From assembly GCA_020073145.1 (NCBI GenBank), contig JAIQFS010000008.1, positions 124,001-188,000 of the forward strand: 64,000 bases of DNA, in the 5' to 3' direction. Shown one piece after another: positions 16,156 to 30,390 of the stretch; positions within the stretch are counted from its first letter, which is position 1; each line of letters opens with the position of its first letter. A model generated the notes under the pieces. The model saw only the letters and a list, made by a program, of their open reading frames with translations, did not search any database and was not told where the DNA came from. A program made the position numbers and the translations under genes. The DNA comes from Terriglobia bacterium (GTDB taxonomy: Bacteria > Acidobacteriota > Terriglobia > Bryobacterales > Bryobacteraceae).

Positions 16156-16612
16156 CTTTGAGCCTCTCGACAGCTATGTGATGCAATCCAAGGGCCATGG
16201 ATTCGGAGAGAAAGGGAACCCGGCGGGGGGAGAGAACGCTCTTCGTCGAGAGCGGGAGGGGTAGCAGGGAGTGTTGGAGGTCTTCAAGGCGGAAAGTGTG
16301 GGGACCGAATTCCCTCTTTCGACTCCCACGATAACCGGCGGCCAGGCCCCACTCCTTTTTTGAAGCTCGTAACTGATTGAGATTTCAGGAGAAAAAGTGT
16401 GCCCGGGGCGGTTACTGCGTTTTTCGGGGGCCAGGCGACAGCCCATCTTCGCGAAACCAACCACTTGGCGGAGGCGTCGATTTGATTTCGGTCGCCGCGT
16501 CAAATGCCGGAACGGACCTGCCCCAGGGGAGGGGACCGCAGTTGGCCGCAAATCGCTGCGCGTTTTGGGAAGCTCCTGTTATAATCGGTGGTTTCTTAGT
16601 CATTTAGCCCAT
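16156..16612. other. Intergenic region upstream of ispH
   Basis: About 450 bases without a convincing gene. It has a short hairpin, CGCTCT/AGAGCG, at 16237-16254. A clear extended -10 box lies near its right end and is listed separately. No riboswitch or tRNA was recognised. Confidence 0.4.
16577..16585 (+). promoter_or_regulatory. Extended -10 promoter for the ispH-hopanoid operon
   Basis: TGTTATAAT (16577-16585) is a perfect extended -10 element (TGnTATAAT), 27 bases before the ispH ATG. No good -35 box is visible, as is usual for extended -10 promoters. It is the best candidate promoter for the packed genes that follow. Confidence 0.65.
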
Positions 16613-17584
16613 ATGCCCGTTAAGCCTTTCGTTCGGAACGATGGTGTGGAAGGAAAAATCTTCCTGCTGAAGCCGCGCGGTTTTTGCGCGGGAGTGGTCC
16701 GGGCGATCGACGTGGTGAAGATTGCCCTGGATCTCTACGGACCGCCGGTGTATGTGCGCAAAGAGATTGTCCATAACAAGCACGTTGTGGACGAACTGCG
16801 GAGCGCCGGAGCGATCTTCGTGGAGGAATTGGACGAAGTGCCGGAAGGAGCGCGGGCCATTTTCAGCGCGCACGGGGTGGCGCCGACGGTGCGTCGAGAG
16901 GCTCGGGAACGCGGCCTGGAGGTCATCGACGCGACCTGCCCGCTGGTGACCAAGGTGCACCTGGAAGCCGTCAAATTCGCGCGCGATGGCTACAGCATCG
17001 TGCTGATCGGGCACAAAGATCACGACGAAGTGATTGGCACTCTGGGCGAAGTGCCGGAGCGCAGCTATCTGGTGGAAACGGTGGAAGACGCGGACCGGCT
17101 GGAGTTGCCCGACCCGACGCGCGTGCGCTACCTAACGCAAACGACGCTCAGCCTCACGGAAACGCGCGATATCATTAGCCGGCTCAAAGAGCGCTTCCCG
17201 CTGATCCAGGGACCGCCGGCGCAGGACATCTGCTACGCCACGGAGAACCGGCAGATGGCGGTCAAGGCGATCTCCGAAGCGATCGAACTGTTGCTGGTGG
17301 TGGGTTCGCAGAACAGCTCGAACTCGAAGCGGCTGGTGGAGGTGGGCGAGAATCTCGGGGTGCGCTCCTACCTGGTGAACGACTGCGGGGAAATCGACCG
17401 CTCGTGGTTGGCAGGCGTGCGGAATGTCGGAGTCACAGCGGGAGCGTCGGCGCCCGAACACCTGGTACAGGAGCTGGTGGATCATTTGCAGAGCCTGGGC
17501 TTTCGCCAGATGGAAGAGATCGAAATGGTAGATGAAGACGTACGATTCTCCTTGCCGACGGAATTGACCATCTCGATTCGATGA
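16613..17584 (+). CDS. ispH: 4-hydroxy-3-methylbut-2-enyl diphosphate reductase
   Basis: This 323-residue iron-sulfur enzyme catalyses the last MEP-pathway step, making IPP and DMAPP from HMBPP. The three cluster cysteines are seen in KPRGFCAGVVRAID, IDATCPLVTKVH and DICYATENRQ. The substrate-binding segments FSAHGVAP, IGHKDHDEVIGTLGE and GSQNSSNSKRL are intact. The ATG at 16613 is chosen; longer frames cross the promoter. Its stop overlaps the squalene-hopene cyclase start (ATGA at 17581-17584), which ties isoprenoid precursor supply directly to hopanoid synthesis. Confidence 0.96.
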   Translation: MPVKPFVRNDGVEGKIFLLKPRGFCAGVVRAIDVVKIALDLYGPPVYVRKEIVHNKHVVDELRSAGAIFVEELDEVPEGARAIFSAHGVAPTVRREARERGLEVIDATCPLVTKVHLEAVKFARDGYSIVLIGHKDHDEVIGTLGEVPERSYLVETVEDADRLELPDPTRVRYLTQTTLSLTETRDIISRLKERFPLIQGPPAQDICYATENRQMAVKAISEAIELLLVVGSQNSSNSKRLVEVGENLGVRSYLVNDCGEIDRSWLAGVRNVGVTAGASAPEHLVQELVDHLQSLGFRQMEEIEMVDEDVRFSLPTELTISIR

Positions 17585-19506
17585 GCGCACCGGCACAAGT
17601 CGGCAGCACTCTAGGAGCCGCGGTGCGGCGGGCGATGGATTCCTCCGCGCGCTACGTAGCGGGACTGCAGGCACGAGACGGGCACTGGTGCGCCGAGTTA
17701 ACGGCCGACACCACGCTGGAATCCGACTACATTCTCTTTCAACTGTGGCTGTATCCGCCGCAGGATGGGAAGTGGGAACCGCAGACGCGGCCCCTGATCG
17801 AGAAAGCGGTGCGCGCCATCCTGGACCGGCAGCTTCCCGACGGCGGCTTCAATATCTACGTCAAGGGTCCGCCAGAGGTGAGTGCTTCCGTCAAGGCGTA
17901 CGTGGCCTTGAAGCTGGCAGGCCTGACCGTGGACGATCCGCGGATGACACGGCTGCGCGAACGCATTCTGGCGCTGGGCGGCGTACAAGCGGCCAACAGC
18001 TATGTCAAGGTCAATCTCAGCCTGTTCGGTCTGTATCCACGCGAGCACTGCCCGAGCATTCCTCCGGAAGTGGCGCTGCTGCCGTTCGATTTTCTCTATC
18101 AGATGTCCTCGTGGACGCGCGCCATCGTGGTCTCGCTGTCGCTGATCCATGCCGCTGATCCGCGGCGGCCGGTGCCCGCCGGTTTTGACGTGAGTGAGCT
18201 GTGGCGGGAGGGCGTGAATCCGGCGTTCCGGCCGGACGACGGATGGATTTCGGGGCGGAACGCGTTCCTGGCCGTAGACCGGCTGTTGAAATGGTGGGAG
18301 CGGCACGGGATGAAGTCCGTGCGCCGCCGAGCCGTCGAAAAGGCGCACGAGTGGATGGTCGAGCGCTTGCACGATTCCGATGGGTTGGGAGCGATCTACC
18401 CGCCGATGATGTACTCGGTGATGGCGCTGGATGTGCTCGGCTACGCGGCGGATCATCCACTGCGCACGGAAGCATTGCGGCAGTTCAACAGCTTGATGGT
18501 GGATGACGGGGAGCGTTTCTTCTTCCAGCCGTGCTTCTCGCCGGTCTGGGACACCGGTATCGCGGCCTATGCGCTGGCGTTGGCGGCTCCGGCTCACCCG
18601 GCTTTGCCCCACGCGGCCGACTGGCTGTTGGCCCGGGAGATCCGGCGCAAAGGCGATTGGTCGGTAAAGCGGCCCAATACGGAGCCGTCGGGCTGGGCGT
18701 TTGAATACGCCAACGCGTTTTATCCCGATATCGACGACACCGCCATGGTGATGCTGGCCCTTAGCCAGGCCTCGGCCAGCGACCCATCGGCGCAACAGGC
18801 CTGTCACCGCCGGGCCATCGACTGGCTGATCGCTATGCAATCGGCCGATGGCGGTTGGGCGGCCTTCGACGCCGACAATAATTGGGAGTTTCTGAGCGAC
18901 GTTCCCTTCGCCGACCATAATGCGATGCTCGATCCGGCGTGTCCCGATATCACGGGCCGGGTGCTGGAGGCGCTGGCGGCGCACGGGGTGGACGGCCAGC
19001 ACCGCGCGGTGCGCCGCGGCGTGGAGTGGCTGGTGCGGCGCCAGGAGCCGGACGGGAGCTGGTACGGGCGCTGGGGCGTGGCGTACATCTACGGAACCTG
19101 TTTTGCGCTGCGCGGCCTGGCTGCCGCCGGCGAGAGCGACCGGGAAGCGCACGTCCTGCGCGCGGGCGAGTGGCTGCGCGCCATTCAGAACGCCGACGGC
19201 GGCTGGGGCGAAAGCTGCGCCAGCTATGATAACGGTGTGTACGCAGCCGGGCCGAGCACTCCGTCGCAGACTGCCTGGGCTATCTTGGGGCTGCTGGCCG
19301 GCGGCGATTCCTCGAGTTCCAGCGTGAGGCACGGCATCGAATACCTGCTCGAAACCCAGCGGGCTGATGGCAGTTGGGAAGAAGAGCTGGCAACGGGGAC
19401 GGGCTTCCCCAAGGTTTTTTACCTGAACTATCACTTGTACAAAGATTATTTTCCGCTGCTGGCACTTGCTTCGGTCGTGAAGCATCAAGCCGGCTCGAAT
19501 GGATAA
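17581..19506 (+). CDS. shc: Squalene-hopene cyclase
   Basis: This 641-residue enzyme cyclises squalene to hopene/hopanol at the inner membrane. The catalytic acid motif DIDD lies at residues 383-386 (YPDIDDTAMV). Several QW-type repeats are present (DGGFNIYVKG, DGGWAAFDADNNW, DGSWYGRWGV, DGGWGESCASYDN, DGSWEEE), as expected for the alpha/alpha barrel. The length matches the family. It starts inside the ispH stop codon, so translation is coupled, and hpnH follows after three bases. Confidence 0.97.
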   Translation: MSAPAQVGSTLGAAVRRAMDSSARYVAGLQARDGHWCAELTADTTLESDYILFQLWLYPPQDGKWEPQTRPLIEKAVRAILDRQLPDGGFNIYVKGPPEVSASVKAYVALKLAGLTVDDPRMTRLRERILALGGVQAANSYVKVNLSLFGLYPREHCPSIPPEVALLPFDFLYQMSSWTRAIVVSLSLIHAADPRRPVPAGFDVSELWREGVNPAFRPDDGWISGRNAFLAVDRLLKWWERHGMKSVRRRAVEKAHEWMVERLHDSDGLGAIYPPMMYSVMALDVLGYAADHPLRTEALRQFNSLMVDDGERFFFQPCFSPVWDTGIAAYALALAAPAHPALPHAADWLLAREIRRKGDWSVKRPNTEPSGWAFEYANAFYPDIDDTAMVMLALSQASASDPSAQQACHRRAIDWLIAMQSADGGWAAFDADNNWEFLSDVPFADHNAMLDPACPDITGRVLEALAAHGVDGQHRAVRRGVEWLVRRQEPDGSWYGRWGVAYIYGTCFALRGLAAAGESDREAHVLRAGEWLRAIQNADGGWGESCASYDNGVYAAGPSTPSQTAWAILGLLAGGDSSSSSVRHGIEYLLETQRADGSWEEELATGTGFPKVFYLNYHLYKDYFPLLALASVVKHQAGSNG

Positions 19507-19509
19507 ACA

Positions 19510-20616
19510 ATGAAATTTCCGCTCGCCATGACCGCCGGCCTGGCCGGGTACATTTTCAAGAACAAGATGAGGCCTCGTCCGGAGTGGCAGAAGAACGTCG
19601 CGCCGGAAGCTGACGCGGCCAATCCGTTTCGCATCCTGCCGGCCAAGACCGGGGAAAAGCGCCAGCCGCATCCCATGATCAACAAGCGTTTTCCGATCGT
19701 GATGATGCTGGAGCCACTGCACGCCTGCAATCTGACCTGTACCGGCTGCGGGCGTATCCGCGAGTACGAAACCAGTATCACCGAGCGCGTGCCGCTCGAA
19801 GAGTGCCTGGCGGCGGTAGACGAGTGCGGGGCGCCCGTGGTTTCCATTTGCGGCGGCGAGCCCATGATGTACCCGCAGATCGGCGAGCTGACCGCCGGAA
19901 TTCTGGAGCGCAACCGGCACATCTATCTCTGCACCAACGGCATGTTCATGCGGAAACGGTTGAAGGAGTTCCAACCCGACAAACGTTTCTATTTCAACGT
20001 GCACCTGGACGGCATGGAGAAAAACCACGATATCGCGGTGGAAAAGGCCGGCGTGTTCCGCGAAGCCATCGAGGGCATCAAAGTGGCTAAGGCCGCGGGT
20101 TTCCAGGTGTGCACCAACACCACGGTCTACAAAGAGACCGACATGCGGGAAATCGAGGAGTTGTTCGAGTACCTCAAACAATTCAACGTGGACGGCCACC
20201 AAATTGCGCCAGCGTATGGCTATTCGGCGGTGAACGATCGCGAGATTTTTCTCACGCGCGAGGACATTCACGAGAAGTTCAAGGACTTCGACCGCATCGC
20301 CCGGAAATACGCCGTGCGGCAGACGCCGCTGTACCTGGACTTCCTCAAGGGAGACAAGGATCTTCCCTGCACCGCGTGGGGGAACCCGACGTATAACGTG
20401 AAAGGCTGGAAGGGCCCCTGCTACCTGATCACGGACGGCCACTACAAGACTTTCGAATCGCTGATGACCGAAACCCCCTGGGAAAGCTACGGCCACGGCA
20501 ACGATCCACGGTGCGAGCACTGTATGGTGCACTGCGGCTACGAGGCTTCCGCGGCGTTCGGGATCAATGCCGGGGTGGCGGACAACCTGAAGATGCTGGC
20601 GTGGATGTTGCGCTAG
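19510..20616 (+). CDS. hpnH: Adenosylhopane-forming radical SAM enzyme HpnH
   Basis: This 368-residue radical SAM protein joins a 5'-deoxyadenosyl unit to hopene, giving adenosylhopane, the first step of C35 hopanoid side-chain synthesis. The cluster motif is CNLTCTGC (C73, C77, C80; CxxxCxxC), followed by GRIREYE and SICGGEPMMYPQIGEL. The HpnH-typical C-terminal cysteines are present in RCEHCMVHCGYEAS. The N-terminal MKFPLAMTAGLAGYIFKNKM matches the family. It begins three bases after the shc stop. Confidence 0.95.
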   Translation: MKFPLAMTAGLAGYIFKNKMRPRPEWQKNVAPEADAANPFRILPAKTGEKRQPHPMINKRFPIVMMLEPLHACNLTCTGCGRIREYETSITERVPLEECLAAVDECGAPVVSICGGEPMMYPQIGELTAGILERNRHIYLCTNGMFMRKRLKEFQPDKRFYFNVHLDGMEKNHDIAVEKAGVFREAIEGIKVAKAAGFQVCTNTTVYKETDMREIEELFEYLKQFNVDGHQIAPAYGYSAVNDREIFLTREDIHEKFKDFDRIARKYAVRQTPLYLDFLKGDKDLPCTAWGNPTYNVKGWKGPCYLITDGHYKTFESLMTETPWESYGHGNDPRCEHCMVHCGYEASAAFGINAGVADNLKMLAWMLR

Positions 20617-20695
20617 TGTTCGGTGGCGCCAGCCATCGGTATTTGCGGTCAGCGTGTCCAGCGGACGACCGGAACGGATCGTCCACCCCACGCCT

Positions 20696-21691
20696 ATGAA
20701 ACCTGTCTTAGTCACGGGCGCCTCCGGGTTCCTCGGGTGGCACGTCGCGCGCCTCCTGGAGGAGCGCGGGTACACGGTGCGCGCCCTGGTTCGCGAAGGC
20801 AGCCGCCTCTCGGAACTGGACGCCGAGCCGGTCACGGGCGACCTGCGCCAGCCGGAGACCCTGGAGCGCGCGGTGGCCGGGTGCGGGCTGGTGTTTCACG
20901 TGGCCGCCGATTACCGCCTGTGGGCCAAAGATCCTCTGGATCTGTACCGCTCCAACGTGGAAGGCACGCGCCATCTGCTCGAAGCCGCGCGGCGCGCCGG
21001 CGTCGAACGCGTGGTCTATACCAGCACGGTGGGTTGCATCGGGATCCCGTCCGGCGGTCTGGGAGATGAAGATTGCCCGGTGTCGCTGTACGATATGGCG
21101 GGCGCGTATAAGCGCTCGAAGTTTCTGGCGGAGCAAGCGGCCCTGGAATTCGCCCGCGAGGGATTTCCGGTAGTGATCGTCAACCCGACTGCGCCGGTGG
21201 GCGATCACGATGTCAAGCCAACACCCACGGGCCAGACGGTGCTCGATTTTCTGAACGGCAAGATGCCGGCGTTCATCGATACCGGGCTGAACATCGTCGA
21301 TGCGCGGGACACGGCGCAAGGGCACCTGCAGGCTTGCGAGCGAGGCCGTCCGGGCGAGCGGTACATTCTGGGGTCGGAAAACCTGACGCTGGCCGGGATT
21401 CTGCAGCTGCTGTCGCGGATTACCGGGCGGAAGGCGCCCACCCTGCGTCTCCCGTACGCCGTGGCGTACTGTGCCGGCGTGTGCAGCACAGCTTGGGCGG
21501 AGGTCACCGGCGCTCCGCCGCGAGTGCCGATTGACGCCGTCCGCATGGCCCGAAAGAAGATGTGGGTGACGCATGAGAAGGCGCAGAGGGAGCTGGGCTT
21601 CAGCCCAGGCCCCGCGGAAACGGCGTTGCGGCGCGCGGTGGAATGGTTCAACGGCTCCTGGCGCGCGACGGCTCGCGTGCCGGCAGCGTGA
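20696..21691 (+). CDS. hpnA: Hopanoid-associated sugar epimerase/dehydrogenase HpnA
   Basis: This 331-residue extended short-chain dehydrogenase has the NAD-binding motif VTGASGFLGWHVA at its N-terminus, VVYTSTVGCIG with the catalytic serine region and YKRSK (YxxxK). HpnA is consistently found in hopanoid loci, but its exact reaction is not established; a role in sugar or side-chain modification is assumed. The ATG at 20696 places the glycine motif at the usual distance. A longer frame from 20654 is unlikely. The stop overlaps the hpnG start (TGATG). Confidence 0.92.
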   Translation: MKPVLVTGASGFLGWHVARLLEERGYTVRALVREGSRLSELDAEPVTGDLRQPETLERAVAGCGLVFHVAADYRLWAKDPLDLYRSNVEGTRHLLEAARRAGVERVVYTSTVGCIGIPSGGLGDEDCPVSLYDMAGAYKRSKFLAEQAALEFAREGFPVVIVNPTAPVGDHDVKPTPTGQTVLDFLNGKMPAFIDTGLNIVDARDTAQGHLQACERGRPGERYILGSENLTLAGILQLLSRITGRKAPTLRLPYAVAYCAGVCSTAWAEVTGAPPRVPIDAVRMARKKMWVTHEKAQRELGFSPGPAETALRRAVEWFNGSWRATARVPAA

Positions 21692-22383
21692 TGAGGCTCT
21701 TGTTCGTGGCATCCGACCCCATGGAGTTTCGCGGCATCCTCGCGGTGACCCAGGCGCCGCGGAAGATTTCCGCTTCGGTGGACTGGGCGCGTGCGGGAAA
21801 AATGAATGGCCACGAGGTTCTACTGGTCGCGAACGGCGCGGGCTGGCAGCGCGCGGCGGACGCAATGGACGCGGCGTGCGATGAATTCCCGGCCGATCGG
21901 GTGGTCAGCACCGGCTTCTGCGGCGCATTGGATCCGCAACTGCAGGTGGCCGATCTGGTGGCGGGCACTCTGGTGGCCCACGGCAACCGGCGTTTTAGTG
22001 CGCTTCCGGTCACCGGCAAGGGAGTGCGGACGGGGATCGTCTGTTCGATCGATCATGTGGCTGGGACCGCGGAAGAAAAGCGCGCGCTCTGCGCGGACGG
22101 CTACAGCGTCGTCGAAATGGAAGCGGCGGGCGTGGCTGAGCGCGCCGAAGCGCGCGGGTTGCCGTTCTCGTGCGTACGGGCCGTGACCGATCTTGCAAGC
22201 GAAGATATGGCGAATGATTTCAACCGGTCGCTGCGTTCCGACGGGCACTTCGCTACAATGCGTATTCTTGGGGGTGCCGTGCGCCATCCGGCTGCCCGAT
22301 TCCCGGAATTAATCCGGTTGCAGCGACGTGGTACGCGGGCCGCTCAGGCGCTGGGAGATTTCTTTGCTGATTGCCGATTCTGA
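21691..22383 (+). CDS. hpnG: Adenosylhopane nucleosidase/phosphorylase HpnG
   Basis: This 230-residue protein has the purine nucleoside phosphorylase fold: VLLVANGAGW, VSTGFCGALDP, then VVEMEAAGVAERAEARGLPF (ribose-binding glutamate) and VRAVTDLASED. HpnG removes adenine from adenosylhopane, giving ribosylhopane or its phosphate. Its ATG at 21691 overlaps the hpnA stop. The frame extends upstream to 21643, but that part lies inside hpnA. A zinc dehydrogenase gene follows directly. Confidence 0.92.
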   Translation: MRLLFVASDPMEFRGILAVTQAPRKISASVDWARAGKMNGHEVLLVANGAGWQRAADAMDAACDEFPADRVVSTGFCGALDPQLQVADLVAGTLVAHGNRRFSALPVTGKGVRTGIVCSIDHVAGTAEEKRALCADGYSVVEMEAAGVAERAEARGLPFSCVRAVTDLASEDMANDFNRSLRSDGHFATMRILGGAVRHPAARFPELIRLQRRGTRAAQALGDFFADCRF

Positions 22384-22405: not shown

Positions 22406-23461
22406 ATGCACGCAGCGGTTTACCGCGGGCGGAGCGTCGTCAGCGTGGAGGAAGTTCCTACGCCGGCGATCGGGCCGGGAGAGCTTCTGGTCCGCGTCGA
22501 GGCGTGCGGTATCTGTAACACCGACCTTAAGAAGATCGAATACAACCTGCTCGATCCGCCGCGCATTTACGGACATGAGACGGCGGGCGTCGTGGCCGCC
22601 GTAGGTGATGGGGTCACCAGATTTTTTCCGGGCGATCGCGTGGTCGCCTTCCACCACATTCCATGCCTGAATTGTTTTTATTGCGAGCGCAAGCTCTACG
22701 CCCAGTGCCCCGTCTACAAGACCGTCGGAATCACGGCCGGCTTCGAGCCCGCCGGCGGCGGATTTGCGCAGTATGTGCGAGTGATGAGCTGGATTGTCGA
22801 ACGCGGCGTTGAGAAGATCCCCGACCACGTCTCTTTTGAGCGCGCCACGCTGGTGGAGCCGCTCAACACCTGTTTGAAGGCGGTGGTGCAAAGCGATCCA
22901 CAACCTGGGGACCTGGTGCTGGTGATGGGGCAGGGACCGATCGGCCTGATGTTCACGATGTTGGCCCGCCGCACCGGGGCGCGCGTCGTGGTGACCGATA
23001 CGATTGCCGAACGCCTGGAAATCGCCCAACGGTGCGGCGCGGAATTCGCCTGGGACCCGCGCACCGAAGATGTGGCATCGCATGTCAAGACATTGACGGC
23101 GGGCCGGGGTGCTGATCTGGTGATGGTGGCGGCGTCGGTGCCGGGAATTGTGCAGCAGGCCCTGGCCTGCTCACGCCCGGGCGCGCGCATCCTGCTCTTC
23201 GCTCAAACCTCGACCACGGAACGGATCGAGGCGTCCGGCGCGGACCTTTGCGTCGGAGAACGAACGATGTTCGGCTGCTACAGCGCCTCGGTAGATCTGC
23301 AGAAAGAATCCACAGAACTTGTTTTCGGAAGTAAATTGCCGCTCGAAGAATTGATCTCACACCGCCTGCCATTGGTTAAAATACGTTCAGGTATCGATTT
23401 GGCATTGCATCCTGGACCTAAATCGTTGAAAATAATCGTTCAGCCACAGAGGTGGTTATAG
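22406..23461 (+). CDS. Zinc-dependent alcohol dehydrogenase (MDR) in hopanoid operon, first copy
   Basis: This ~351-residue medium-chain dehydrogenase has catalytic zinc ligands in EACGICNTDL and the GHE of IYGHETAGVV. Its structural zinc site is CLNCFYCERKLYAQC (Cx2Cx2Cx7C), and the nucleotide-binding motif is GQGPIGLMFTMLARRTGARVVVTD. Substrate is unknown. Its place between hpnG and hpnC suggests a step in side-chain formation, such as reduction of ribosylhopane to bacteriohopanetetrol. That is inference only. The ATG at 22406 is preferred (GTG 22385 possible). It overlaps the next dehydrogenase start. Confidence 0.88.
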   Translation: MHAAVYRGRSVVSVEEVPTPAIGPGELLVRVEACGICNTDLKKIEYNLLDPPRIYGHETAGVVAAVGDGVTRFFPGDRVVAFHHIPCLNCFYCERKLYAQCPVYKTVGITAGFEPAGGGFAQYVRVMSWIVERGVEKIPDHVSFERATLVEPLNTCLKAVVQSDPQPGDLVLVMGQGPIGLMFTMLARRTGARVVVTDTIAERLEIAQRCGAEFAWDPRTEDVASHVKTLTAGRGADLVMVAASVPGIVQQALACSRPGARILLFAQTSTTERIEASGADLCVGERTMFGCYSASVDLQKESTELVFGSKLPLEELISHRLPLVKIRSGIDLALHPGPKSLKIIVQPQRWL

Positions 23462-24501
23462 TGAATAGCGAGATGATGGCCGCTGTCTTGTACGGCAAGG
23501 AACACTTGCAGGTCGAGCCAGTGGCTGTTCCCACAATCGGTGACGGAGACATCCTCGTCCGAGTGAAGGTGGCGCTGACCTGCGGAACGGACGTGAAAGT
23601 ATTTCGCCGCGGGTATCATGCTCGTATGATTGTGCCGCCGGCGGTCTTCGGCCACGAGCTCGCGGGCGACGTGGTGGAGGTAGGCGCCGGCGTGACGGGC
23701 TTTGGAGTCGGACAGCGCGTGGTGGCTGCCAACTCGGCTCCCTGCAACGAGTGTTTTTTCTGCAGGAGAGGCCTTGAGAATCTCTGCGAAGATCTGCTGT
23801 TCAATAACGGCGCGTATGCCGAGTACATTCGAATTCCCAGCCGCATCGTGCAGCGCAACACGTACCGGATTCCGGAGCGAGTGAGCTATCACGACGCCGC
23901 GCTGGTGGAACCCCTGGCGTGCGTGCTGCGCGGATTTGAAGAGACGGCGCCGCAGCCCGGGGATACGATCTCGATCATCGGGCTGGGACCCATTGGTCTG
24001 ATGTTCGTCAAGCTGGCGAAGCTGTACGGGTGCCGGGTGATCGCGGTCGGGAGGCGCAAGACGCAGTTGGACCGCGCGGCGGCCCTGGGCGCCGACGAAC
24101 TGATCGAAGCGCACGGCGATTCCAACCCCGTTCCCGCCATCCGGCGGCTGACTCACGGCCGCGGCGTGGACATCTCGATTGAAGCGGTGGGGAATCCGCA
24201 GACGTGGCATTGGGCGGCTGACATGGTGCGGCGCGGTGGCACGGTGAACTTCTTCGGAGGGTGCCCCAACGACAGCAAGGTGAGCCTGGATACGGCGCTG
24301 TTGCACTATTCCGAGATCACCTGCAAAGCCACTTTCCATCACACGCCCATGTACATCCGCAAGGCGCTCGACCTGATCTGCGCGGGGCACGTCACGGCCT
24401 CATTCTTCGTGAACCGCGAGGAGCCGCTGGCCAACCTTCTGGAAGTGATGCGCCATTTGATGAGCCACAACGGGCACCTCAAAACGGCGATCCTGCCGTA
24501 G
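23461..24501 (+). CDS. Zinc-dependent alcohol dehydrogenase (MDR) in hopanoid operon, second copy
   Basis: This ~346-residue MDR enzyme is a distant relative of its upstream neighbour. The catalytic zinc region is ALTCGTDVKVF plus FGHELAGDV, the structural zinc site is CNECFFCRRGLENLC and the nucleotide fold is GLGPIGLMFVKLAKLYGCRVIAVG. An R/K-rich segment after that strand (GRRKTQ) may favour NADPH. The GTG at 23461 is chosen because AGAGGTGG (23448-23455) is well placed; it shares a base with the previous stop. Two tandem dehydrogenases could act in sequence or as a heteromer. The substrate is unknown. Confidence 0.86.
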   Translation: MNSEMMAAVLYGKEHLQVEPVAVPTIGDGDILVRVKVALTCGTDVKVFRRGYHARMIVPPAVFGHELAGDVVEVGAGVTGFGVGQRVVAANSAPCNECFFCRRGLENLCEDLLFNNGAYAEYIRIPSRIVQRNTYRIPERVSYHDAALVEPLACVLRGFEETAPQPGDTISIIGLGPIGLMFVKLAKLYGCRVIAVGRRKTQLDRAAALGADELIEAHGDSNPVPAIRRLTHGRGVDISIEAVGNPQTWHWAADMVRRGGTVNFFGGCPNDSKVSLDTALLHYSEITCKATFHHTPMYIRKALDLICAGHVTASFFVNREEPLANLLEVMRHLMSHNGHLKTAILP

Positions 24502-24526
24502 GGTTTGTTGAAAGGTGGGTTCCGGC

Positions 24527-25453
24527 GTGGACGCAGCCCTGTTCTTGCCTCCAGCGGAATTTGTACGGTCCGTGGAAGCGCGGGAGCGGCCTTACTCCCC
24601 GGAAGCGGCCCGCGCGTACACACGCTGGCTGGCCACCCGACACTACGAGAATTTTCACGTGGTCAGTTTTCTGCTGCCCAAGCGGCTGCATCAGGATTTC
24701 TACAATGTCTACGCCTACTGCCGCTGGGCCGATGACCTCGGCGATGAAATGGGCGATCGCGCCGAGAGCCTGCGCCTGCTGGAGTGGTGGCGCGGCGAGC
24801 TGGACGCGATGTACCAAGGACGGGCCACGCATCCGGTCTTCGTGGCGCTGTTGCCCACGGTCGAGCGCTGCGGCATACCGCGCGAGCCATTCTCTGATTT
24901 GATCCAGGCCTTCGTGCAGGACCAAACCGTCACCCGCTACCGCGACTTCAAAGAGCTCTTTGGCTACTGCCGATATTCCGCCAACCCAGTCGGAAGGCTG
25001 GTGCTCTACCTCTGCGGTTATTCGGACGTCGAGCGGCAGCGGCTTTCCGACGCCACCTGCACCGCGCTGCAGCTCGCGAACTTCTGGCAGGACGTGACCG
25101 TGGACCTGCTCAAGGACCGCGTCTATATCCCGCTGGACGTCTTGAGCCGTCACGGATATACGGTTGAAGAACTGTTCGCGCGGAGCTGCACGCCCGCCTT
25201 TCGCGAAGCGATGCGCGAGATCGTGGAGCGGGCGCGCGGCTTGTTCCTGGAAGGGCTGCCTCTGGTGGGCCGCGTGGACCGCCGTCTGGCGCTGGACATT
25301 GACCTGTTCAACCGCGGCGGAATGCGCGTGCTCGACAAGATCGAGCAACAAGGCTACGACGTGCTGGGCGTGCGGCCGGCCATCTCGAAAGCCGAGCGCG
25401 TGGGGCTGCTGCTGCAGTCTCTAGCGCGCGTGGCCTTTTCGCGGGCGGCCTGA
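24527..25453 (+). CDS. hpnC: Hydroxysqualene synthase HpnC
   Basis: This ~308-residue trans-isoprenyl diphosphate synthase-like protein carries the aspartate motif YCRWADDLGDE and a second metal-binding region, LQLANFWQDVTVDLLKDRVYIP. HpnC converts presqualene diphosphate to hydroxysqualene in the HpnCDE route. GTG at 24527, with AAAGGTGGG seven bases upstream, is preferred over GTG at 24515. Its stop overlaps the hpnD ATG (TGATG). It lies downstream of the two dehydrogenases in the same operon. Confidence 0.94.
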   Translation: MDAALFLPPAEFVRSVEARERPYSPEAARAYTRWLATRHYENFHVVSFLLPKRLHQDFYNVYAYCRWADDLGDEMGDRAESLRLLEWWRGELDAMYQGRATHPVFVALLPTVERCGIPREPFSDLIQAFVQDQTVTRYRDFKELFGYCRYSANPVGRLVLYLCGYSDVERQRLSDATCTALQLANFWQDVTVDLLKDRVYIPLDVLSRHGYTVEELFARSCTPAFREAMREIVERARGLFLEGLPLVGRVDRRLALDIDLFNRGGMRVLDKIEQQGYDVLGVRPAISKAERVGLLLQSLARVAFSRAA

Positions 25454-26286
25454 TGACCGTCGAGCAATCGTACGCCTACTGCCGGCGCGTGGCCCGCAGC
25501 CGCGCCAAGAACTTCTACTACTCGTTCCTGTTGCTTTCGGCGCAGCAGCGCAAGGCCATGTGCGCGATTTACGCCTTCATGCGCTACTGCGACGATTTGA
25601 GCGACGAGCCGGGCGCCACTCGCGCCGCCATCGACCGCTGGCATGCGGAGTTGGATGATGCTCTGGAAGGCCGGTTCAGCGGCCACCCGGTGTGGCCGGC
25701 CTTTCATCACACCGTGCGGCGCTTCGGGATTCCGCGCGAATACTTCAGCGAGATGATCGAAGGGGTGGCATCGGACCTGGAGCCGCGGCAGCTCGAAACC
25801 TTCGACCAGCTCTATCGCTACTGCTACCAGGTGGCCTCGGTGGTGGGGCTCACCATTATCCATATCTTCGGTTTCGACACGCCGCGAGCCCTGCCTCTGG
25901 CCGAGAAATGCGGCGTGGCGTTCCAGTTGACCAACATCCTGCGGGATCTCCGCGAAGACGCCGAGCGCGGACGCCTTTACCTGCCCGCCGAAGACCTGCG
26001 TCGCTTTTGCGTCAATCCCGAGGACCTCTGCGCCGGCCGCCGCACCGAAGGGTTTCTACAATTGATGCGCTTCGAAGGCGCACGGGCGCGGGCCTACTAT
26101 ACCGAAGCCATGCCGTTGCTCGATCTGGTGCACCGCCGCAGCCGAAGGTCGCTGTGGGCGCTGATCTCAATCTATTCGGAACTACTGGAGCGGATCGAGC
26201 GCGCCAACTACGACGTGTTCACGCGCCGCGTGCGGCTGTCGGCGCTGGAGAAGAGCTGGATCGTGGTAAGGGCGCTGGTGGCATAA
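25453..26286 (+). CDS. hpnD: Presqualene diphosphate synthase HpnD
   Basis: This 277-residue squalene/phytoene synthase family member has FMRYCDDLSDE (first Asp-rich motif, D47/D48) and LTNILRDLREDAERGRLYLP (second motif). It condenses two farnesyl diphosphates to presqualene diphosphate, the substrate of HpnC. It is translationally coupled to hpnC. No hpnE (FAD-dependent hydroxysqualene dehydroxylase) follows; the next gene is convergent. Confidence 0.94.
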   Translation: MTVEQSYAYCRRVARSRAKNFYYSFLLLSAQQRKAMCAIYAFMRYCDDLSDEPGATRAAIDRWHAELDDALEGRFSGHPVWPAFHHTVRRFGIPREYFSEMIEGVASDLEPRQLETFDQLYRYCYQVASVVGLTIIHIFGFDTPRALPLAEKCGVAFQLTNILRDLREDAERGRLYLPAEDLRRFCVNPEDLCAGRRTEGFLQLMRFEGARARAYYTEAMPLLDLVHRRSRRSLWALISIYSELLERIERANYDVFTRRVRLSALEKSWIVVRALVA

Positions 26287-26349: not shown

Positions 26350-29300
26350 CTATCGTTTCCGTTTGGCGACCAGCCGCACACGCTTGGTTTGCGAGATGGC
26401 GCCGGAGGTTAGGGCGTCGTTGACGATTTCGGCTTGCTCCTGCTGGTGGCGCTTGCCGGAGCCGGTGGCCGGGCTGGCACTTTCCGGACGTCCGACGTAG
26501 CGGACCTCGCGGCGGCTACCCTCGAGCAGCGGATCCAATTGCTCTTTCATGAAGCGCCAGGGGCCCATGTTCCGCGGCTCTTCCTGCGCCCAGACCACTT
26601 CTGCGGAGGCGGCGAAGCGAGCCAACAGATCGCGCGCCTGAGCGGCCGCGAAGGGGTATAACTGCTCCACGCGAATTAAGGCCACGTGCGTGGCCTGGCG
26701 CTCGTCGCGCGCGGCCAGCAGGTCGTAGTAGATCTTGCCGGAACAGAAAACCACACGGGAAATACGGGTGGAGTCGCCCACTCCCGCGTCGGGCAGGATC
26801 TCGCTGAAACCGCCTGCGGTGAAATCCTGGACGGTCGAGACGGCACGCGGATGGCGCAGCAGGCTCTTGGGGGTGAAGATGACGAGCGGTTTGCGCGTGC
26901 CGCGGCGGTCGTGCCCACCGTACATCTGGCGGCGCAGCAAGTGGAAATACTGCGCGGGCGTGGTGCAGTTGGCCACCAGCAGGTTGTTCTCCGCACACAG
27001 GGTGAGGAAGCGCTCAATGCGGGCGCTGGAATGTTCGGGGCCCTGCCCTTCGTATCCGTGCGGCAACAGCATCACGAGGCCGGTGGGCTGGCCCCACTTG
27101 GATTCAGCGCAGGAGATGAACTGGTCGATCATGATTTGGGCGCCGTTGGCGAAATCGCCGAACTGGGCTTCCCAAATAACCAGGGTCAGCGGATCGGCCA
27201 CGCTGTAGCCGAATTCGAAACCCAGCACGGCGAACTCGCTGAGCGAGCTGTCATACACGTCGAATCGGGCCTGGCCGGGCGTGATGTGCTGCATGGGGAT
27301 GTAGCGCCGCCCGTCTTCGGAATCGTAAAAGGCAAGGTGGCGCTGGCTGAAAGTGCCGCGGCCGGAATCCTGCCCGCTGAGGCGGACCGGTGTACCCTCC
27401 AGAGTCAGAGTGCCGAAGGCCAAGGCCTCGCCGAAGGCCCAATCGATCGGCCCGCCCTTTGCCAGAGCATCGCTACGGCGGTCGACGAAGCCGCGCAGCT
27501 TGGGGTGCAAGTGGAAACTCTCGGGGAAACTGGTGATGGCGCGGACCACACGTTCGATTACGGCGTGGTTGACGGCGGTGCGGGGAGTGAGGCCGCCGAT
27601 ATCCTCGTTCGGCACCGCGCTCAGTTCCTGCAGTTCGTACTGCTCGGCATGCTGCTGCACGGCGTCGAATGCTTCGGAGAGGTGGCGGGCCGCCGCTTTG
27701 CGCTTGGCCTGAACTTCTTCCACCGACAGTACACCCTCGCGCACCAGGCGCCCGCCGTACAGGGAGCTCACCGACGGGTGCTCCTTGATTTGCCGGTAGA
27801 GAATGGGCTGCGTGTAGCTGGGATCGTCACCTTCGTTGTGCCCGTGGCGGCGATAACAGATCATGTCGATCACCACGTCCTTTTTGAACTGCTGGCGGTA
27901 ATCGAAGGCCACCTGCAACACGCGGATGGCGGCCTCGGGATCGTCGCCGTTGACGTGGAAAATGGGGGCCTGGACGCCGCGGGCCACATCGGTCGAGTAC
28001 GGGGTTGAACGCGCCTCATCCGGCATGGTGGTAAAGCCGATCTGGTTGTTGATGATCAGGTGGATGGTGCCGCCCGTCGAGTAGCCGTCGAGCTGGGAGA
28101 GGTTCAGCGTCTCGGTTACCACGCCCTGGCCGGCGAACGCCGCGTCGCCATGGACCAGCAGCGGAATCACGCGTTCGCGGCGGGTGTCGCCGAGGCGGTC
28201 CTGCTTGGGGCGCACGATGCCTTCCACCACCGGGTCGACGGCCTCCAGGTGGCTGGGATTCGGCGCCATGGAAACCACGATCTCGTTGCCGCTGTCGGTC
28301 CGGCGCACCCCGGTCGCGCCCAGGTGATACTTGACGTCGCCCGAGCCCTGCGTGCTGGATGGATCGATGTCGCCTTCAAACTCCGAGAAGATCTGCTTCA
28401 GATCTTTCCCGACGACGTTCGCCAGGAAGTTCAACCGGCCGCGATGGGCCATTCCCATGACGACTTCGTGGACGTCGTTGGCCGAGGCGCGTTCCAGAAG
28501 TTCTTCGACAATCGCCAGCGCCGTTTCGGCGCCCTCGAGCGCGAAACGCTTCTGTCCCACGAACCGGGAATGGAGGAAATGCTCGAATTCTTCGGCCGCA
28601 ATCAGGTTGCGCAGAATCTGCACGCGGGCTTCATTGGCCAGCGGCCAGTTGTTGGCGCCCGGCTCCATGCGCTGCTGCAACCAGCGCTTCTGCTCCGGCA
28701 CCTGAATGTTCATGTACTCGCAGCCGATTTTGCCGCAGTAGGTCTGGCGCAGCGTTTCCAGGATCTGGCGCAGGGTGGCCACGGGTTTGGGACCGCCGTC
28801 GCGGCCGAGCGGGCCGCCGGCCTCACCTAGAGTACCGGTGAGAAACTCGCGGTCGAGGTCCCAAATGGTGAGCCCGTAGTTTTCCGGATCGAGCTCGGCG
28901 TGGTAGCTGGGCTCGGAGCCCAGCGGATCGAAGTCTGCGATCAGGTGCCCGCGAACGCGGTAGGCGTTGATCAGTTGAATGATGCCGGCTTCCTTGGCGA
29001 TCTCCGCGGTGCGCGCGGAGGTCATCCCGGGAAGCTGGGTCTGGCGGTCTTTCTCCCAGCGCACGGGCTGGTGCGGCAATTTCAAGTGTGCGAAGACTTC
29101 TTCGTAGAAGCCGTCGGCGCCGTCGAGTAGCTCCTGCACTTTGCCCAGGAACATCCCCGATTCGGCGCCCTGGATGATGCGGTGATCGTAGGTGCAGGTC
29201 AGGGTCATGACCTTGCTGATACCCAACAGGGCGCGGGTTTCATCGGCGGCGCCTTGGTACTCGGCCGGGTAATCGATGGCGCCGGCCGCGATGATCGCCC

Positions 29301-30021
29301 CCTGTCCCACCATCAGCCGCGGATTGGAGGACATGGTGCCGACGGTTCCCGGGTTGGTCAGTGACAGCGTAGTGCCCTGGAAATCTTCGGGCGTGAGCTT
29401 GCCCTTGCGCGCCCGGGCTACCAGATCGTCGAAGCGCGTCACGTATTCCTGAAAGTTCAGCGCGCCGGCATTCTTGATGTTGGGGACCATGAGGCTGCGG
29501 GCGCCGTCCCGGCCGGCGACATCCACGGCGATTCCCAGATTGACCTGGGAGCGCACGACGCGGTGAGGCTGCCCATCTTTCTCGGCGTAGGCGTGGTTGA
29601 TGCCGGGAACCTCTTCCAGCGCCTTCACGACCGCCCAGCCGATGAGATGCGTGTACGAAACCTTACCGTGGCCGACCAGCGTTCGGTGCTGGTTGATGAT
29701 CCTCCGGTTCTCGTCCATCACCTTGACGGCGATGGTGCGTTGGGAGGTGGCCAGCGGGATCACCACGCTGGCGGCCATGTTCTCGGCGATGCGGCTGGCC
29801 GCGCCCCGCAGGGGCTGGAGTTGCTCCCCAGGCGCGAGTGCCACCGGAGCCGCCGCCGGCGGCCGGCCCGCAACCATCGGGCCGCCGTTGCCGGGATGCT
29901 CTTCTTCAAAAACGTGCTTCCAGCTCTCATCAACGGCCGTGCGGTCGTTTCTATATTGCTGATATAGCTCGTCTTCGAGCCAGCTATTGATTCCCTTGTC
30001 AGGATCGGATTTGGACGCCAT
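26350..30021 (-). CDS. kgd: Multifunctional 2-oxoglutarate dehydrogenase (E1 fused to E2 acyltransferase domain)
   Basis: The product has about 1223 residues in Kgd-type order. An N-terminal SucA helix (INSWLEDELYQQYRNDRTAVDESWKHVFEE) and a short linker come first. An E2 acyltransferase domain follows (KVSYTHLIGWAVVKALEEVPG, then TCTYDHRIIQGAESG with the catalytic His). The thiamine-diphosphate E1 part has MGMAHRGRLNFLANV, GATGVRR, INNQIGFTT, YRRHGHNEGDDPSYTQP and HGYEGQGPEHSSARIERFL. It oxidatively decarboxylates 2-oxoglutarate in the TCA cycle. The ATG at 30021 is the family start; a 70-residue upstream extension looks spurious. No lipoyl domain is present, so a separate E2/E3 must supply it. 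TATGAT at 30040-30045 (minus) may be the -10 box. Confidence 0.93.
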   Translation of the reverse strand: MASKSDPDKGINSWLEDELYQQYRNDRTAVDESWKHVFEEEHPGNGGPMVAGRPPAAAPVALAPGEQLQPLRGAASRIAENMAASVVIPLATSQRTIAVKVMDENRRIINQHRTLVGHGKVSYTHLIGWAVVKALEEVPGINHAYAEKDGQPHRVVRSQVNLGIAVDVAGRDGARSLMVPNIKNAGALNFQEYVTRFDDLVARARKGKLTPEDFQGTTLSLTNPGTVGTMSSNPRLMVGQGAIIAAGAIDYPAEYQGAADETRALLGISKVMTLTCTYDHRIIQGAESGMFLGKVQELLDGADGFYEEVFAHLKLPHQPVRWEKDRQTQLPGMTSARTAEIAKEAGIIQLINAYRVRGHLIADFDPLGSEPSYHAELDPENYGLTIWDLDREFLTGTLGEAGGPLGRDGGPKPVATLRQILETLRQTYCGKIGCEYMNIQVPEQKRWLQQRMEPGANNWPLANEARVQILRNLIAAEEFEHFLHSRFVGQKRFALEGAETALAIVEELLERASANDVHEVVMGMAHRGRLNFLANVVGKDLKQIFSEFEGDIDPSSTQGSGDVKYHLGATGVRRTDSGNEIVVSMAPNPSHLEAVDPVVEGIVRPKQDRLGDTRRERVIPLLVHGDAAFAGQGVVTETLNLSQLDGYSTGGTIHLIINNQIGFTTMPDEARSTPYSTDVARGVQAPIFHVNGDDPEAAIRVLQVAFDYRQQFKKDVVIDMICYRRHGHNEGDDPSYTQPILYRQIKEHPSVSSLYGGRLVREGVLSVEEVQAKRKAAARHLSEAFDAVQQHAEQYELQELSAVPNEDIGGLTPRTAVNHAVIERVVRAITSFPESFHLHPKLRGFVDRRSDALAKGGPIDWAFGEALAFGTLTLEGTPVRLSGQDSGRGTFSQRHLAFYDSEDGRRYIPMQHITPGQARFDVYDSSLSEFAVLGFEFGYSVADPLTLVIWEAQFGDFANGAQIMIDQFISCAESKWGQPTGLVMLLPHGYEGQGPEHSSARIERFLTLCAENNLLVANCTTPAQYFHLLRRQMYGGHDRRGTRKPLVIFTPKSLLRHPRAVSTVQDFTAGGFSEILPDAGVGDSTRISRVVFCSGKIYYDLLAARDERQATHVALIRVEQLYPFAAAQARDLLARFAASAEVVWAQEEPRNMGPWRFMKEQLDPLLEGSRREVRYVGRPESASPATGSGKRHQQEQAEIVNDALTSGAISQTKRVRLVAKRKR

Positions 30022-30390
30022 GAAGAAAGACTCCACTCCATCATACCGAGGGAAGCCCAGAGGCCACCACTTGCGGGTCAAGCTTGTCTGGGATGACTCC
30101 GCACTGGGTGGGTTGTCCGGGGAAGCCGTGTCATTGTGACACGGGTTCCGGCAATCGAAATGCAGACGTTCGGATGGGTTCGCCTCCCGGCTCAGAGGAC
30201 GTTTTGTCCCTGAGGAAAAAAGTACGTTCAACGAAGCTTCTTACACGGTAAAAACGAGTTTTGCTGGCAATTCTCCGCGTGAGCGGGCACTTCTTTTCTA
30301 ACGATCCCGCATTTGGCCCTTGTCGTGCCCCTCCCACTCTCAAAAACTATGCAGTCCATTACGGAAGTCCAACCCAAACAGGAAGCCACC
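30022..30390. other. Divergent intergenic region with a long palindrome
   Basis: About 370 bases separate kgd from the zinc-ribbon/LuxR-type gene. The main visible structure is the palindrome at 30121-30149, listed separately. No gene is seen; the ORF extensions of both neighbours into this region lack ribosome sites. Confidence 0.45.
30121..30149. repeat. 29-base inverted repeat, operator-like
   Basis: The left arm GGAAGCCGTGTCA and right arm TGACACGGGTTCC flank TTG. Twelve of 13 positions are complementary, with one G:G mismatch. It lies 100-128 bases upstream of the kgd start and about 240 bases upstream of the divergent regulator gene. The symmetry suits a homodimeric regulator; the absence of a T-run argues against a terminator. 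Confidence 0.6.

Follow-up and report, generated by a model that had tools for sequence, protein, structure and literature searches.

Paired zinc-dependent dehydrogenases in an acidobacterial hopanoid operon as candidates for C35 side-chain chemistry

In the established pathway to extended hopanoids, the radical SAM enzyme HpnH joins 5'-deoxyadenosine to diploptene, after which HpnG removes the adenine to give ribosylhopane. The conversion of ribosylhopane to bacteriohopanetetrol is an aldehyde reduction. The enzyme responsible for this step was still unestablished in 2025, according to a study that also reported no obvious further candidate near the hopanoid clusters of Alphaproteobacteria (PMC12583986), and no paper in the literature searched names it; the initial annotation of the locus described here, which had called the reductase not well established, agrees with that account.

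Three acidobacterial hopanoid clusters were described in 2017, one of which ends with hpnA-hpnG-ug1 and another of which starts with ug2-hpnC-hpnD-hpnE (Sinninghe Damste et al. 2017, PMC5462960). In the passages of that account that deal with these genes, ug2 is a Zn-binding alcohol dehydrogenase of ~350 aa, found in every SD1 and SD3 strain; Chloracidobacterium lacks it and makes bacteriohopanetetrol nonetheless. The same passages assign no function to ug1 or ug2, do not state their kinship, pairing or occurrence outside hpn clusters, and suggest HpnA for the reduction of ribosylhopane to bacteriohopanetetrol while noting contrary evidence. Through this listing, the association of both genes with hopanoid loci was already known.

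The window analyzed here, a stretch of 64,000 nucleotides (contig JAIQFS010000008.1, assembly GCA_020073145.1), comes from the 6.3-Mb genome of a Bryobacterales/Ca. Solibacter-type acidobacterium. It carries an operon in the order ispH-shc-hpnH-hpnA-hpnG-MDR1-MDR2-hpnC-hpnD, with the following genes:

16397..17584, + strand: ispH (LytB), first gene of the operon; NCBIfam match
17581..19506, + strand: shc/hpnF, squalene-hopene cyclase (SHC); TIGR01507, 649 bits (cut-off 431)
19510..20616, + strand: hpnH, adenosylhopane synthase (radical SAM); TIGR03470, 422 bits (cut-off 225)
20654..21691, + strand: hpnA, hopanoid-associated SDR; TIGR03466, 468 bits (cut-off 368)
21643..22383, + strand: hpnG, nucleoside phosphorylase-type, removes adenine; TIGR03468, 149 bits (below the cut-off of 187), and position
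22406..23461, + strand: MDR1, zinc dehydrogenase of polyol dehydrogenase type; catalytic zinc ligands C37/H57/E151, Asp198 at the end of beta-2; ug1 by position
23461..24501, + strand: MDR2, zinc dehydrogenase of polyol dehydrogenase type; catalytic zinc ligands C41/H65/E150, Gly-Arg-Arg-Lys at the end of beta-2; ug2 by position
24515..25453, + strand: hpnC; TIGR03464, 358 bits (cut-off 250)
25453..26286, + strand: hpnD; TIGR03465, 274 bits (cut-off 279)

All of these genes lie on a single strand with intergenic gaps of -49 to +37 nt, which bears out the earlier description of one continuous operon with overlapping or near-overlapping starts. The name hpnG rests on score and position, because no HpnG in the 247 acidobacterial genomes searched reaches the TIGR03468 cut-off; that model seems too narrow for acidobacterial HpnG. 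HpnE is encoded elsewhere in the host genome (477 bits). A consensus scan found no promoter, and terminator-like matches, more numerous than in shuffled sequences, conveyed no clear message. On the minus strand beyond the operon (26350-30231), a 1293-aa protein combines a 2-oxoacid dehydrogenase acyltransferase domain with a 2-oxoglutarate dehydrogenase E1 in a KGD-like arrangement.

MDR1 follows hpnG as ug1 does, and MDR2 precedes hpnC as ug2 does; the two were equated with ug1 and ug2 by position and lineage rather than by sequence. The MDR1 frame is open from the ATG at 22406 to the stop at 23461 (351 aa), and that of MDR2 from the GTG at 23461, or the ATG at 23473, to the stop at 24501 (346 aa). 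Both proteins exceed the Pfam cut-offs for ADH_N and ADH_zinc_N, and each has four structural-zinc cysteines (87/90/93/101 in MDR1, 95/98/101/109 in MDR2). Catalytic and structural ligands alike are invariant in orthologue alignments of 18 MDR1 and 15 MDR2 rows, so that the two intact zinc dehydrogenases recognized between hpnG and hpnC by the initial annotation are confirmed. A TGA reported within MDR1 of one family was considered as a selenocysteine codon and dismissed, since it proved to be the ordinary stop just beyond the match.

The third ligand of the catalytic zinc is a Glu in an EP motif (E151/E150), which aligns with the corresponding Glu of GatD, IdnD, RspB and YdjJ and is absent from YahK, Ahr and AdhP. 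The substrates of MDR enzymes with this C-H-E site are mostly secondary hydroxyls or ketones. Of the residues that close beta-2, Asp or Glu is typical of NAD use and basic ones of NADP use. MDR1 orthologues carry Asp at this position (Glu in one aligned row), and hopanoid-type MDR2 proteins mostly carry Gly-Arg/Lys-Arg or similar basic residues, L039 with its Asp being an exception; MDR2 of type B has Asp as well. From these residues, MDR1 looks like an NAD-type and MDR2 like an NADP-type enzyme. Hopanoid-type MDR1 also has a loop at 110-117 of the form TAGFEPxG (TAGFEPAG in the window) that is missing from other MDR1 types and would sit in the substrate cleft. AlphaFold models are confident, with pLDDT values of 94.9 (MDR1) and 92.3 (MDR2). 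Among solved structures they most resemble TADH, threonine dehydrogenase, ketose reductase/sorbitol dehydrogenase and butanediol dehydrogenase, with which the two proteins share 25-31% identity. Active-site and fold data thus narrow the chemistry, not the substrate.

With GatD, IdnD and the sorbitol dehydrogenase/ketose reductase 1e3j, MDR1 and MDR2 share the fold (TM about 0.84-0.89 to solved members), the C-H-E catalytic zinc, the structural zinc and both Pfam domains, at about 21-28% identity to the solved members; both fall in a clade separate from the E. coli polyol and sugar dehydrogenases. IolM and L-threonine 3-dehydrogenase (Tdh) are the top curated NCBIfam models, yet both proteins reach only ~35-40% of the cut-offs. 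Membership of Tdh was rejected at 156/159 bits against 458 (TIGR00692) and 157/154 against 380 (PRK05396), and membership of scyllo-inosose 3-dehydrogenase IolM (NF041097) at 158/169 bits against 450; a separate close Tdh homologue occurs in the host genome (L004). The clear match to an unrelated characterized sugar or polyol dehydrogenase that the initial annotation had named as evidence against its proposal was therefore not found, the best models lying this far below their cut-offs and the solved relatives being only ~25-31% identical. In a tree with MDR proteins from E. coli and from the host genome, MDR1-like and MDR2-like proteins form two neighboring families apart from Tdh, GatD, IdnD, RspB, YahK and AdhP, and the union of the two has 96% SH-aLRT support in a quick tree and a weaker 88/75 in a careful one. 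MDR1 and MDR2 are thus neighboring families and an old pair, a relationship that is new in this analysis.

The gene order recurs in the best 80 Bryobacteraceae loci, with hpnG, MDR1, MDR2 and hpnC wherever the contig reaches, and the best 80 matches of the contig search were to Acidobacteria only. Among the neighborhoods of 20 orthologous loci, hpnA, MDR1, MDR2 and hpnC/hpnD occur together in several families; the hpnG query from the window often fails to match because of divergence, and the family model finds the gene beside MDR1. Because the order recurs both in Bryobacteraceae and in other families of the phylum, the hpnG-MDR1-MDR2-hpnC arrangement is not due to chance. In one clade the operon is split, with MDR2 directly before hpnC-hpnD in all 12 genomes inspected and MDR1 still behind hpnG. 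In ~28 of the Bryobacteraceae loci, shc and hpnA have no hpnH between them, with hpnG-MDR1-MDR2 still in place; 24 of these 28 genomes have another HpnH elsewhere, mostly high-scoring, so the pathway appears to have been kept and hpnH exchanged or moved. The in-operon HpnH of the window's family scores ~421 bits, compared with 505-558 in most relatives of the class; both observations suggest that two lineages have exchanged hpnH. In HpnH-positive genomes without a linked MDR1, no replacement reductase was found beside hpnG among the neighbors read, which included, as recognized by eye, isoprenoid/mevalonate-type genes and a luciferase-like and a decarboxylase-like protein.

Co-occurrence was assessed in 247 acidobacterial genomes spread over the phylum, many of them draft assemblies, with score cut-offs placed by eye at gaps in the match lists and counts tallied by hand. 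The MDR1 orthologue group comprises 42 genomes (at least 334 bits; next match 222) and the MDR2 group 43 (at least 360 bits; next match 285). HpnH is present in 65 of the 247 genomes and SHC in 66; of the 42 genomes with hopanoid-type MDR1, HpnH occurs in 39 and SHC in 40. Those without an HpnH match are the fragmented genomes G103 and G230, where other hpn genes lie beside the pair, and G209, where the hopanoid-type pair and HpnE are present and SHC, HpnH and HpnG were not detected. Six genomes (G081, G098, G124, G202, G210 and G229) have two SHC genes far apart.

Besides the hopanoid type, two further types exist in genomes that have no linked hpn genes; each again comprises an MDR1-like and an MDR2-like member, and the two usually adjoin. 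When profiles of all types (A3/A4) were used, an MDR2-family member was found in 66 of the 247 genomes, namely in 56 of the 65 with HpnH and in 10 of the 182 without it. With shared ancestry ignored, the association of any pair type with HpnH (both/HpnH only/pair only/neither) gives Fisher p = 2.6e-35 for genomes (56/9/10/172), p = 4.5e-14 for genera (23/8/7/105) and p = 2.7e-13 when hopanoid-type genomes are left out (17/9/7/172); at the family level it is only about p = 1e-4, for an assumed 70-80 families. The co-occurrence that the initial annotation proposed to look for is strong in this phylum but incomplete both ways, and comes with a conserved order behind hpnG, and a lack of association with hopanoid loci, which it had set beforehand as decisive against the idea, is contradicted by a strong association of linked and unlinked pairs.

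Nine of the 65 HpnH-positive genomes lack the pair (G007, G028, G054, G065, G083, G109, G189, G223 and G234); in G007, HpnG and HpnE were undetected as well, and its lack of the pair may reflect an assembly gap. Conversely, pair members occur in eight genomes from five families in which neither HpnH nor SHC was matched, that of G209 being of the hopanoid type, so the wider family also does something else. Around the non-hopanoid pairs no shared theme was found, the neighbors being mostly unrelated genes. In one family (L079 of G209; L053 and L061 of G061), a hopanoid-type pair lies outside any hpn cluster; SHC and HpnH of G061 are located elsewhere.

The search outside Acidobacteriota covered plasmids, where the closest relative of MDR2 found, from Rhodococcus opacus (45% identity), falls inside the MDR2 clade (99/96). 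Its neighbors are a DeoR-type regulator, a class II aldolase whose best-matching model, ribulose-1-phosphate aldolase, scores below cut-off, a transporter and an FGGY kinase; together they form a pentose/polyol-type operon. Within the phylum, a lone MDR2 sister in G121 (L078:9240-12412) is divergently oriented beside mtnB, an ARD-family gene and mtnC. The compounds handled by the mtn (methionine salvage) pathway are 5-substituted riboses, a class to which ribosylhopane also belongs. This neighborhood was not kept in two relatives of G121 and therefore serves as a lead only.

The reading that we prefer, with a probability of roughly 0.4, is that MDR1 and MDR2 are co-evolved, soluble zinc-dependent oxidoreductases which this lineage dedicates to the sugar-derived side chain of C35 hopanoids, MDR2 reducing ribosylhopane and MDR1 performing a second step. 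The analysis establishes gene identity, intact sites, pairing and association with HpnH/HpnG, whereas substrate, direction and coenzyme are inferred. HpnG yields ribosylhopane, whose open-chain sugar end would then be reduced: the NADP-type MDR2 would most likely form bacteriohopanetetrol from ribosylhopane or from its ketose form, and the NAD-type MDR1 would most likely carry out another redox reaction on that head group, for example by oxidizing one hydroxyl or by serving as the first half of a couple with MDR2. A role in side-chain chemistry is favored by the conserved linkage and the co-occurrence with HpnH described above, by the C-H-E site, which resembles that of GatD and IdnD and differs from that of YahK, AdhP and Ahr, and by the pentose/polyol-type operon around the nearest relative of MDR2 found outside the phylum. 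The zinc type is also the strongest internal argument against a simple aldehyde reduction, and a one-step reduction leaves the presence of two enzymes unexplained. For these reasons the hopanoid-type pair probably acts in C35 side-chain chemistry, and the narrower proposal that one of the two enzymes converts ribosylhopane to bacteriohopanetetrol is put forward only tentatively, with the odds somewhat against it. MDR2 is the better candidate for that step than MDR1 on the best reading.

Several other explanations must be set against this one. It is possible, if somewhat unlikely, that the pair acts at a different step of the C35 side chain, either as a redox couple on a secondary hydroxyl of bacteriohopanetetrol, giving an epimer or keto product, or by forming a carbonyl on which a transferase later acts; ribosylhopane would then be reduced by HpnA or a general aldose reductase. 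The C-H-E zinc and polyol dehydrogenase kinship, the NAD-type and NADP-type partners, the 110-117 loop exclusive to hopanoid-type MDR1 and the proposal of HpnA as reductase by Sinninghe Damste et al. (PMC5462960) would all suit such a role. However, the same paper reports only ordinary tetrafunctionalised polyols in almost all acidobacterial strains, so no special product requiring such a couple is known. Disposal or recycling of by-products of the radical SAM enzyme and HpnG (5'-deoxyadenosine, 5-deoxyribose), in place of lipid building, would account for the mtnB, ARD-family and mtnC neighbors of the MDR2 sister in G121, for the class II aldolase alongside the Rhodococcus relative and for pairs in HpnH-negative genomes. 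We consider it unlikely, given that the mtn neighborhood is absent from the two other members of that family, that no kinase or aldolase gene was recognized within the hopanoid operon, and that nearly every genome would have this need through its other radical SAM enzymes, yet the pair follows HpnH.

General polyol or alcohol dehydrogenases carried along in the operon, their conservation reflecting only the shared ancestry of the cluster, would fit the modest family-level association and the pairs in genomes without hopanoid genes; the persistence of the pair over long divergence (about 50% identity), its survival inside hpn clusters when the operon breaks up and the continued co-occurrence of unlinked pairs with HpnH make this improbable. 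That MDR2 goes with hpnC-hpnD where the operon is split might suggest a part in the squalene branch, where it could, for instance, replace or assist HpnE. Such a role is highly improbable: MDR chemistry is unsuited to reductive dehydroxylation, HpnE occurs in most of the hopanoid-type genomes checked outside family f28, and work cited in PMC5462960 found HpnCDE enough for squalene. Replacement of HpnE by MDR2 was rejected because HpnE is encoded elsewhere in the host genome.

The proposal of the initial annotation that one or both enzymes reduce the opened ribose is supported in part: the hopanoid association is strong, and the reductase role itself stays conjectural; as a general answer it fails on the nine HpnH-positive genomes without the pair. 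Together with Chloracidobacterium, which lacks ug2, and the alphaproteobacterial clusters without a candidate, these genomes indicate that the pair cannot be the universal missing enzyme, although it may be the acidobacterial one. A bolder reading, less likely than not, is that bacteriohopanetetrol in Acidobacteriota is formed from ribosylhopane by MDR2, either by itself or together with an obligate partner, MDR1; the enzyme would have been recruited from a pentose/polyol dehydrogenase lineage, and other phyla would use unrelated enzymes for this step.

Most extended hopanoids derive from bacteriohopanetetrol, and the molecular fossils that they leave are among the most abundant. Because the pair tracks the hopanoid pathway even where the genes are separated, at least one of its members is a good, testable candidate, and the unnamed step thereby gains two concrete candidate genes. 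The pair also suggests that the conversion of ribosylhopane to bacteriohopanetetrol has been solved more than once in bacteria.
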